Assembly: GCA_018873225.1 (NCBI GenBank)
Contig: JAEILZ010000006.1
Location: 1,426,001-1,490,000, forward strand
Source of the DNA: [Phialemoniopsis] sp. UDSM-2020
Taxonomy: Eukaryota > Ascomycota > Sordariomycetes > Thyridiales > Thyridiaceae
DNA length: 64,000 nucleotides
Direction: 5' to 3'
In this document: one piece after another, positions 1,957 to 56,787 of the stretch
How positions within the stretch are numbered: the stretch's first letter is position 1
Layout: every line of letters begins with the position of its first letter
The notes under the pieces: model-generated
The model's input: only the letters and a program-made list of their open reading frames with translations
What the model was told of the DNA's origin: nothing
Database searches by the model: none
Translations under genes and position numbers: made by a program

Positions 1957-1963
1957 AAAAAAA
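1957..1963 (-). terminator. Pol III T-tract terminator of the intron-containing tRNA-iMet
   Basis: Seven A residues on the + strand, read as T7 on the minus strand, lie 11 nt beyond the tRNA 3' end. A second A-run (about 1944-1952) lies further downstream. Runs of at least four T are the usual Pol III stop. No T4 run occurs inside the tRNA or its inserted sequence, so full-length transcription is plausible. Confidence 0.65.
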
Positions 1964-1973
1964 CAATTGCTTA

Positions 1974-2096
1974 TAGCAAGGAGTGGTTTCGATCCACCGT
2001 CCTCCGGGTTATGCTGGAACATATTAGTTGACGTTTTTGGAATTTAGCGTGGAATTTAACTTACAGCCCGGCGCGCTTCCACTGCGCCACCTTGCT
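1974..2096 (-). tRNA. tRNA-iMet(CAU): Initiator tRNA-Met (CAU) interrupted by a 51-nt intron in the anticodon loop
   Basis: Read on the minus strand, with 2014-2064 removed, this is a complete 72-nt cloverleaf. It has the eukaryotic initiator hallmarks: A1:U72 at the acceptor end, three G:C pairs (GGG/CCC) flanking the anticodon loop, and T-loop AUCGAAA in place of TUCG. Compared with the uninterrupted copy at 2252-2323 it differs at three positions only. Pair 7:66 changes from A-U to G-C (compensatory) and pair 49:65 from G-C to G-U. The internal A box (TGGCGCAGTGG) and B box (GGATCGAAACC) are intact and T7 follows downstream. The insertion falls between U33 and C34, not at the canonical 37/38 site. 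Whether the transcript is spliced, or this copy is a silent relic, cannot be told from sequence. Confidence 0.9.
2014..2064 (-). other. Spliceosomal-type intron inside the initiator tRNA gene
   Basis: The 51-nt insertion reads GTAAGT at its 5' end, has AACTAAT (a CTRAY branch site) about 10 nt before the end, and finishes TTCCAG. This is exactly the layout of the protein-gene introns in this window. Removing it restores the loop CU-CAU-AA perfectly. The boundaries cannot be slid to position 37/38, because the insert begins GTAA whereas the exon after the junction reads CATA. It contains a short direct repeat (TAAATTCCA twice) and no T4 run that would stop Pol III. Confidence 0.85.
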
Positions 2097-2251: not shown

Positions 2252-2323
2252 TAGCAAGAGGTGGTTTCGATCCACCGTCCTCCGGGTTATGAGCCCGGCG
2301 CGCTTCCACTGCGCCATCTTGCT
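2252..2323 (-). tRNA. tRNA-iMet(CAU): Initiator tRNA-Met (CAU), uninterrupted
   Basis: A 72-nt cloverleaf on the minus strand. All seven acceptor pairs match (A1:U72 to A7:U66) and the discriminator is A. The D stem is GCGC/GCGC, the anticodon stem CCGGG/CCCGG, the loop CUCAUAA with anticodon CAU, and the T arm GGUGG-AUCGAAA-CCACC. The A1:U72 pair, the GGG/CCC anticodon stem and the A54-containing T loop identify the cytosolic initiator rather than an elongator. It lies 155 bp from the interrupted copy in the same orientation. Confidence 0.95.
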
Positions 2324-54700: not shown

Positions 54701-56787
54701 CTCGATCGATCTTGGCAGCCAAGAACTCTGCGTCCCATCTGTTTGCCATTAACGCCTCTTGAAAGATCTCATGTAGGAGCGTTCCATAGACTAGAGCTGG
54801 GGATGCTTCGCTAGTGGCCTTGACCCGATCCTGCAGCACTGCGCGTCGCATGCAGCTGAAAGAGTCGGCGATGACTGTCGAAGAGATGAGTTGATCAGGG
54901 TGGAGGATCAACATGTTTTGCGAGTTATCAATGATACACATGCCGGTCGACTCGAATTTGCCTATGATGTGCACATATGACTTCGTGCTGACTGGGGTGT
55001 CAACCCAATCACCGCGGAGATGGACTGTCATGATGGAGCTCGTTCTCTCCGCTTGAATAACAAGAATCTAGGGAGACTGATCAGCATGGGTCTCTGGGCT
55101 GTGCAACGAGATCCTCACCTTTTCGGGGTACTCTCGACCAGCATCGGTCTCATACGAGCTGTCGAGCACGTTTGTGACAAGATATCGCTGGATAATTCTA
55201 GACTTCTGGGATGGCTATTCGGAGACATTTAGTGCACGTCTTCAGATTGAGCTATCAGCCAGTACATACACTCGTTAAATATGTGGATGAAGTAGGTGGT
55301 TTGACAGATTGCGTGGCTGCCAGCTCAGCAGCATCAAAGTCAAAATCTCCAAAGTCGTCACCATATGCATCGTCTGCCTCACCAAGCCCTCCTCCCGAAT
55401 CACCAGGATCGATTTGCGATGGTCTTGATTCGATGGGAGCAGAAGCCTTTGGCTCATGCATCTGGGAGGCGGCCTGGTCAATATCTGCGATGATGTTCTC
55501 AGCCGCCGCAAAGACGTCATCATCCAGTTCTCCAAACTCATCTTCCTCATCTGCGGCTACCATCGGGAGCGGACTCTCCACCTTGCTGTTGGCGGAGGCT
55601 GCCACGGCGAGCATATCGCAACCCACGCCCTGATGACTGAGATTTGCGTCCAGCTCCATTAGAGTGTCGTCGTCAAACTCGTCATCTCCAAAGTCCTCCT
55701 CGAAGGATGCCGCCGCATGAAGCGAAGACACTTGGTCTGTTCCAGTTGCGACACGGTTTGGTGCTTTGCTGGGTGAAACAGTTTCCGGAATCGACTGTTT
55801 CTGTGGAGATGGGGATCTCTGTAGCAAAGTATCTCTTGCCGTCTCGGCGCTTTCGAGCTCGCCAGTGACAGACTTGAGCAGCGCAGATACCATGGAGGTC
55901 TTGGAATCGGATGCTTCTTGCCTCAACATGCTGGGGGAGCGGCCGTTCATCTTCTCTGTCCTCCTACGTTTTGACCAGCTCGTGCCGCAACTAGCGGCTC
56001 GCCTAAAGCCTTTCTTGTCGGCTCCTCCAACTCCAGTATGCGCCGGTCTCGGTGACGATGAGACCATGAGATTTGCCAGCATAGGATTCGTCCGCCCAAG
56101 AGGCGTATTGCTAGTACCACTCAGGGAAAAACGATCCCAGAGCTCCATCGCCGGGTCTGTATGTGGGGACCTTAGTGCCTCCTTCAGCCTCTTCATGTTG
56201 ACCGCTGGCGTGCTGGGAGACGAGGTTGGAGACGAGCTTCTAGCCCTCTTCTTCCCCGTCCTATTCAACATCGGCGATATGACCGCAGAGAGCTTGTCCC
56301 GTTCGTTGTGCCACAGTATACGTTCAGTCGGGGATGTGTCCTCCTCCTCGGTAGATGTGTCCGTAATGCCCATGAGATCTTGCCATGCCAGCCGGGCGAT
56401 CGGAGTCATGGCATCCAACGGCTTGGGCATAGGTGGTGGGGAGACATTGACTTTTTTCGAGCCGCCGCCGTTCTCCTTGTCGGATCCCCCACTAGCTGCT
56501 GTTGTCGCTTCATTTCCTTGGCCAGCGACGGATGGGAATGCAGTCTCGGTAGGAGGTTGAAACTCGAACGCGTGCAGCTTATTCTTAGTGACGTCGGATA
56601 TGGGAACAGGCCTTCTCGCAGTCCTCGGTGCGTTGACGGCAGAGCCGCTCTTTGATCGGTTCCATTGTGGTCGCTATCATGAGCAAGGTCAATACACTGT
56701 GGGCTAGTCTTGTGTAAAGCAGAATAATGAAAGGAGCCTTACCCGGGAGAAACGATTCTGCTCAGAAAATGACTTCTGTAGTGTCAT
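51720..56787 (-). CDS. DNA2: DNA replication ATP-dependent helicase/nuclease Dna2
   Basis: Minus-strand exons 56743-56787, 55270-56673, 55119-55205 and 51720-55067 encode 1627 residues. The first exon codes for 15 residues (MTLQKSFSEQNRFSR). Dna2 trims Okazaki flaps and resects double-strand breaks. The N-terminal 480 residues are disordered (PPMPKPLDAMTPIARLAWQD). The RecB-like nuclease follows at about 600-840 (LVYGTLLHEIFQEAL, LKGNIDAT, FELKTGRN). Iron-sulfur cysteines include Cys in SFSCMRRAV and the CGKCYAQTSC cluster. The superfamily 1B helicase has Walker A GMPGTGKT (Lys at about 1114), YCIVDEASQ, VGDHNQLPPL, HQYRMNED, DRFQGRDKEVVVLS and NVAFTRAKTKLLVVGS. A disordered basic tail ends the protein. 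All key motifs are intact. Confidence 0.95.

Follow-up and report, generated by a model that had tools for sequence, protein, structure and literature searches.

An initiator tRNA-Met (iMet) gene is interrupted between U33 and C34 by a 51-nt insert which is very probably a U2-type spliceosomal intron in a nuclear tRNA gene, belonging to a class that occurs in at least 13 tRNA loci of the genome and would be removed by the spliceosome. We also think it likely that the supply of cytosolic tRNA depends on the spliceosome that serves mRNA: all decoding of UUU and UUC, and probably much of the decoding of AAG, GAG and the Pro codons, would pass through precursors with one or two spliceosomal introns, to which tRNA-Phe adds an endonuclease intron. 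The gene lies in the 64-kb stretch of DNA analysed here (the window), which is C8:1426001-1490000 of a 44.18-Mb genome in 11 contigs (C1 and so on). The coordinates are collected in Table 1.

Table 1 Coordinates of the iMet gene pair (window positions) and of other tRNA loci (contig positions).
Feature	Coordinates	Strand	Basis or remark
Initiator tRNA-Met copy A, interrupted, 123 nt	1974..2096	-	Rfam RF00005, 50.8 bits; equals copy B plus one insert
Copy A exon 1, positions 1-33	2065..2096	-	Alignment to copy B
Copy A 51-nt GT-AG intron between U33 and C34	2014..2064	-	Unique placement
Copy A intron 5' splice site GTAAGT	2059..2064	-	Sequence; GTNNGY class in 16/16 tRNA introns
Copy A intron branch-site box CTAAT, branch A 2024, 10 nt from intron end	2023..2027	-	Sequence
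Copy A intron 3' splice site CAG	2014..2016	-	Sequence; AG in 15/16 tRNA introns
Copy A exon 2, positions 34-73, anticodon CAT first	1974..2013	-	Alignment to copy B
Copy A A box region, uninterrupted	2078..2089	-	Sequence
Copy A B box region GGATCGAAACC, uninterrupted	1985..1995	-	Sequence
T7 run resembling a Pol III terminator; begins 11 nt past copy A	1957..1963	-	Sequence
Initiator tRNA-Met copy B, 72 nt, uninterrupted (empty site)	2252..2323	-	Rfam 66.7 bits; ARAGORN tRNA-Met CAT
tRNA-Gln(CTG), GT-AG insert	C4:6073465-6073595		Rfam search, read by eye
tRNA-Ser(GCT), GT-AG insert	C10:2992201-2992353		Rfam search, read by eye
tRNA-Glu(CTC), D-loop GT-AG intron and apparent 8-nt 37/38 intron	C6:1797309-1797431		L080
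tRNA-Leu(CAA), GT-AG-like intron ending GG	C1:2349113-2349273		L056
TTCGA indel region	C8:2737400-2737930		L084
TTCGA indel region	C9:2980400-2980700		L082
TTCGA indel region	C10:1902960-1903280		L105
Inverted tRNA pair	C1:995820/996338		
Inverted tRNA pair	C4:3138750/3139777		
Inverted tRNA pair	C6:356355/356809		
Inverted tRNA pair	C6:1107745/1107963		
Inverted tRNA pair	C6:1465508/1467456		
Inverted tRNA pair	C8:2737511/2737798		

The interrupted gene (copy A) lies 155 bp from an uninterrupted one (copy B), which was found by both Rfam and ARAGORN, and these two are the only iMet loci known genome-wide from our DNA searches. When all 51-nt deletions of copy A were tried against copy B, the sole best solution was the removal of GTAAGT...CAG, which leaves 3 mismatches (the next best leaves 4), and an alignment of the two copies gives the same unique placement. 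In silico excision regains copy B except for 3 bases: A7G and U66C, which form a compensated pair, and C65U, which turns the 49:65 pair from G-C to G-U. Both copies have the pair A1:U72, an anticodon stem closed by three G-C pairs, and a T loop with A54 and A60, a combination which we take to mark a cytosolic initiator tRNA. The two box regions of Table 1 are the A box and the B box of the internal Pol III promoter. These results bear out what an earlier note had read from the window: the GTAAGT...CTAAT...CAG insert with its coordinates and sequence, the uninterrupted copy nearby, and, as marks of upkeep, the compensated G7-C66 pair, the whole A and B boxes and the T7 run. The intron also holds a 9-nt direct repeat, TAAATTCCA, present twice with 3 nt between (window 2038-2058).

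Within the window, on both strands, the combination of GTNNGY, CTAAY and AG at a length of 48-59 nt fits 7 of 1,536,000 choices of start and length, one of them being the iMet intron, so that such exact ends would be expected by chance in a given insert about 5 times per million. At gathering scores, Rfam detected in the window only the two tRNAs and no group I or group II catalytic core; 51 nt is far too short for an intron of either group.

It is conceivable that copy A is silenced or decaying, an intron-like insert having arrived while copy B makes all the initiator tRNA and copy A stays unprocessed. The intact copy B close by and the presence of tRNA relics elsewhere in the genome (L082, L084, L091, L094 and L105) agree with such a history, but the compensated 7:66 pair, the whole promoter boxes and T7 run, and the good quality of all three splice signals do not. 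Moreover, introns of this class also interrupt tRNA-Phe, and our searches gave no working Phe copy free of them, so that the cell presumably removes such introns. We therefore consider the silencing of copy A unlikely and return to the reading of its insert as a spliceosomal intron.

Inserts of the same kind were found across the whole genome in at least 13 tRNA loci, with 16 introns of 48-59 nt. Seven lie in the D loop (Phe-1, Phe-2, Phe-3, Lys-CTT-1, Lys-CTT-2, Glu-CTC and Leu-CAG), seven in the anticodon loop (at 32/33 in Phe-1, Phe-2, Phe-3 and Leu-CAA, at 33/34 in iMet, and at 34/35 in Gln-CTG and Ser-GCT) and two in the variable loop (Pro-AGG-1 and Pro-AGG-2); no T arm is interrupted. 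The spread of the class over 13 loci and over contigs C1, C4, C6, C8 and C10 led us to reject an assembly error. Ratios given below over 16 introns include Phe-3 and those over 14 introns leave it out.

The 13 loci were gathered by an Rfam search, a CTAAY pattern search, queries with tRNA exons and a query of 14 joined introns. The Rfam search of the genome (RF00005) gave at least 62 matches, with 63 of 930 candidates scored, and some of the long tRNAs among them were misnamed by ARAGORN. Our hand tally comes to 73 nuclear tRNA or tRNA-like loci (47 from the Rfam search and 26 others), at least 13 of which are interrupted. This catalogue is incomplete, as Tyr, Trp, elongator Met, Glu-TTC, Gln-TTG and others are absent from it; a query of 14 tRNA sequences (Trp, Tyr, elongator Met, Glu-TTC, Ala, Thr, Gly, Arg and Gln-TTG) had no match in the genome. 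The 15 mitochondrial tRNAs of contig C3 stand outside all counts. This contig (28,924 bases; L047-L049) has the look of a mitochondrial genome, judging from its size and tRNA cluster.

The way in which the introns were found limits how their motifs may be counted. The pattern of CTAAY, acceptor and B box gave 53 matches against 122 in a reversed control, most matches not being intron-bearing tRNA genes; the pattern alone therefore shows nothing and was used as a net only. Eight loci with 10 of the 16 introns also fit the pattern (Phe-1, Phe-2, Leu-CAA, Gln, both Lys, Glu and Leu-CAG) and Phe-3 was picked up by the joined-intron query, so that the count of branch boxes is partly selected. Six introns were found without any intron motif, those of iMet, of Gln and Ser (Rfam), and of Leu-CAG and the two Pro genes (exon queries), and GTNNGY, CTAAY and AG are present in 6/6 of them.

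The splice signals are uniform over the set. All 16 introns begin with GTNNGY and all 16 contain exactly one CTAAY, with its A at 10-14 nt from the 3' end. The 3' end is AG in 15/16, the exception being Leu-CAA, where the junction needed to restore the tRNA ends in GG. Paralogues with an empty site allow the junctions to be placed without use of the motifs: for iMet and Gln-CTG they leave GT-AG as the single placement of the insert, and GT-AG is among 2 equal placements for Leu-CAG and among 5 for each Pro gene, where the five placements arise from AGGT at both ends. No single large gap came out of the alignment for Ser-GCT, whose paralogue has a longer 37/38 intron. The remaining junctions were set by restoring the tRNA.

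Removal of the GT-AG inserts in silico yields recognizable tRNAs. ARAGORN then assigns the expected isotype and anticodon in 12/13 genes, the exception being Phe-3, while for the unspliced sequences it gives a wrong isotype or no call in 13/13, so that similar genes could be overlooked elsewhere. After the removal, it also reports 37/38 introns of 17 nt in Phe, 24 in Ser, 8 in Glu, 28 in Leu-CAA, 11 in Leu-CAG and 18 in Pro. Phe-1 and Phe-2 each hold two spliceosome-type introns and one ordinary intron, and exon 2 of Phe is an inner exon of 12 nt.

For comparison with coding introns we assembled from the window a rough, motif-based set of 19 candidates, which, having been chosen with splice motifs, serves only as a loose yardstick: median length 66 nt, last branch-box A at 9-21 nt from the end, CTAAY in 8/19 and TTTT in 4/19. 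A strict motif version of the set leaves 6. An intron of the Dna2 gene near 55212-55269 was located by homology, its ends being approximate. Residues 1-500 of this Dna2 are 95% identical to a Thyridium curvatum protein, the other matches listed lying at about 73-82%, and a longer comparison with the same protein gave pieces of 87% and 73%. These identities place the fungus among the Sordariomycetes close to Thyridium, probably as a separate species.

Ordinary introns of eukaryotic nuclear tRNA genes, at 37/38 and handled by TSEN and ligase, likewise interrupt nuclear tRNA genes and are present in this genome, including in several doubly interrupted genes. They differ from the GT-AG set in position, length and ends. 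None of the 20 ordinary 37/38 introns that we collected has GTNNGY...AG and one has CTAAY near its end; the ends of these 20 were set by hand, so that a few could be wrong by one or two bases. The 37/38 introns of Pro-1, of Phe-3, of both Pro relics in L084 and of the truncated Leu relic L094 are not among the 20. The GT-AG inserts lie at 33/34 in iMet and in the D loop, at 32/33, at 34/35 or in the variable loop in the others, and so not at 37/38. Among the ordinary introns themselves, tRNA-Pro(TGG) in L087 has one of 8 nt, as tRNA-Glu(CTC) appears to have. In tRNA-His(GTG) at C1:3596815-3596940 (L035), position 37 is followed by a 54-nt insert which, judged by its sequence, may form a long hairpin and which has no GT-AG ends.

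This comparison bears on the call that ARAGORN makes for unspliced copy A, tRNA-Tyr(gta)i(36,51), according to which the insert would be an ordinary TSEN intron of a tRNA-Tyr(GTA) at 36 or 37/38. The body of copy A is that of an initiator, 3 bases from copy B, the D-loop and variable-loop inserts of its sister genes cannot be 37/38 introns, and ends of the GTNNGY...AG kind are those missing from the ordinary set. Cutting copy A at 37/38 would place an A opposite C32 at the A-I position, but this A-I test (position 32 with intron position -3) separates no classes here, pairing being found in 9/20 ordinary and 5/14 ectopic introns. We hold the TSEN reading to be extremely improbable and took the tRNA-Tyr call, with its wrong positions and ends, as spurious.

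Another route would be an endonuclease that cuts non-canonical sites without the spliceosome, as for the tRNAs of a red alga and of nucleomorphs, the likeness to GT-AG introns being secondary. The part of a 2014 review available to us (PMC4090602) describes non-canonical eukaryotic tRNA introns in nucleomorphs and the red alga with bulge-helix-bulge or unknown routes. As here, the introns of Cyanidioschyzon merolae and of nucleomorphs lie outside 37/38, and those of nucleomorphs also occupy the D arm, with up to three per gene, which speaks for this route (PMC4090602, same part). They differ in being tied to bulge-helix-bulge motifs or to an unknown route (PMC4090602, same part). The Cyanidioschyzon introns need the bulge-helix-bulge, whereas in the 14 introns considered here the central helix has between 0 and 3 of its 4 pairs, without pattern, and the donor, the branch sequence and the branch distance are kept in 16/16. 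We judge such an endonuclease very unlikely here, and spliceosomal removal remains our preferred reading.

The case for use of these introns is strongest for tRNA-Phe. Four Phe loci were seen: Phe-1 and Phe-2, interrupted and with intact B boxes; Phe-3, interrupted and with a damaged T loop; and L082 (C9:2980505), the sole uninterrupted Phe locus found, which has the anticodon GAG, a D-stem mismatch and an 8-nt T loop. When we looked for an uninterrupted Phe gene with a 27-base probe reaching from the D loop to the anticodon loop, there was no match at up to 3 mismatches; a more divergent gene, such as L082, would escape this probe. Judging from these loci, every likely working tRNA-Phe gene found has two GT-AG introns, and we know of no other reader of the Phe codons. 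Phe-1 and Phe-2 agree at every position of their mature exons (73/73 nt), and their introns match, signals included, at 36/55 aligned positions in the D loop and 35/55 in the anticodon loop. This is the pattern expected if exons and splice signals were under selection and the intron interiors were not. The earlier note had considered a recent insertion of a spliceosomal intron into a Pol III gene, an unusual splicing route or a silenced copy: of these three, the genome-wide set favours a spliceosomal intron in such a gene, but "recent" does not hold generally, given the strong divergence of the Phe-1 and Phe-2 introns beside identical exons. Phe-3 is probably dead, since 4 nt are missing from its T loop, although it has kept its introns.

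Among the loci found for other isotypes, interruption affects Lys-CTT in 2/2, Glu-CTC in 1/1 and Leu-CAA in 1/1, and the mature Lys-CTT copies are identical (73/73); Lys-TTT is present in the genome, and other isoacceptors could help. Pro-AGG has two interrupted copies with good T loops and two without a GT-AG insert (L084) with bad ones. A paralogue without a GT-AG insert exists for iMet, Gln-CTG, Ser-GCT and Leu-CAG, so that the interrupted copies of these four could be dispensable.

As to how these genes might work, RNA polymerase III would use the internal A and B boxes as promoter and transcribe as far as the T run. U1 and U6 would recognise GTNNGY and U2 would recognise CTAAY, and the spliceosome would then excise the intron of 48-59 nt in lariat form, which would make the D, anticodon or variable loop whole again; a coexisting 37/38 intron would be removed by TSEN and tRNA ligase. 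Because inserts in the D loop or variable loop would disturb the tRNA fold, spliceosomal removal would probably come before end trimming and export. We infer the transcription, the spliceosomal splicing and the order of these steps from sequence features. Runs of at least five T follow 13/13 loci, at +1 to +43, and TTTT is absent from 16/16 introns, which is compatible with Pol III; against shuffles, its absence from the first 14 introns is not significant (P = 0.15). The A-box letters up to GG are left intact by 6/7 D-loop introns (not by that of Glu-CTC), in both Lys copies because the intron begins with GTA like the exon that it displaces. The kept A-box letters and the intron-free T arm would fit transcription from internal promoters.

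Relatives of the iMet intron elsewhere in the genome, which the earlier note had thought worth looking for, exist as members of the same class in the tRNA loci described above and not as near copies: none was found in 44.18 Mb at up to 3 mismatches. A clear likeness of intron interiors was seen only between paralogous copies (the Lys pair, the Pro pair and Phe-1/Phe-3); a weak cross-match of Leu-CAA with Pro-2 (z 3.7), one among 91 pairs, was taken as chance. These data bear on the possibility that a small mobile element of the introner-like kind was recently copied into the gene, its splicing being incidental. Such elements exist in fungi, according to the part of PMC3443670 available to us, and the Pro introns with AGGT at both ends point the same way. 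The iMet insert, by contrast, has neither a second copy at up to 3 mismatches nor a duplicated target alongside, and the 14 joined introns used as a query returned the known tRNA loci and one further interrupted tRNA-Phe, with nothing outside tRNA loci, which sets the set apart from fungal introner-like elements with their near-identical copies. A mobile-element insertion of this sort appears highly improbable; it concerns the origin of the insert, and spliceosomal removal is compatible with it. Reverse splicing, as proposed for U6, would fit as the origin of the introns here.

An invasion of other Pol III genes was not seen in the matched 5S and U6 genes. For 5S, 26/26 matches are full length and uninterrupted (47 of 2458 candidates scored), as are 3/3 U6 loci (47 of 2476 candidates scored); at these scored fractions, interrupted 5S or U6 genes could have been missed.

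The closest precedent is found in fungal U6 genes. The part of PMC10484740 available to us describes, in fission yeast, an mRNA-type intron in the Pol III gene for U6, whose removal is part of U6 maturation, and suggests reverse splicing as its origin. The likeness to the present case is that an mRNA-type intron interrupts a Pol III noncoding RNA gene; on the available text, the U6 system differs in that the interrupted RNA itself belongs to the spliceosome and has its intron close to catalytic nucleotides. Here, unlike in U6, there are many tRNA hosts and three loop positions, and some of the hosts also have an endonuclease intron.

Spliceosomal introns in Pol III genes are thus already known, and with a tRNA as host we know of no precedent. 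No report of spliceosomal introns in tRNA genes stood among the papers listed for the open-access literature on tRNA, U6, spliceosomal introns and Thyridium genomes, subscription papers and preprints being outside the scope of that search. Neither rRNA nor U2 comes from a Pol III tRNA gene. As spliceosomal introns in fungal noncoding RNA genes, those of ascomycete nuclear rRNA genes and of the Rhodotorula U2 gene resemble the present ones, as far as the titles cited in PMC2586383 tell. In the available part of the 2014 review, the string "spliceosom" has 0 occurrences (PMC4090602).

If RNA evidence confirms them, these introns would form a new class of tRNA intron. The available part of a 2026 review presents the spliceosome for mRNA and the endonuclease with ligase for tRNA as commonly kept apart (PMC13149111); splicing as predicted here would mean that this division is not absolute and that short, structured transcripts of Pol III, including those whose inner exon measures 12 nt, are open to the spliceosome. 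Under the dependence proposed for tRNA-Phe, two unrelated splicing machines would join four exons into one RNA of 73 nt, and translation would be coupled directly to the activity of the spliceosome. Intron gain would also become open to study in hosts in which nearly all exon bases are constrained and the correct product is known beforehand.

Some observations concern the tRNA genes more broadly. Locus L091, considered as an interrupted tRNA, was rejected as a degenerate Ile-like relic with no intron. In the TTCGA of the T loop (B box), tiny indels recur in two Pro copies, in the uninterrupted Phe copy and in Phe-3, and look like repair scars at one spot. Several close inverted pairs of tRNA genes of the same isoacceptor occur in the genome, some of them with introns in both members.
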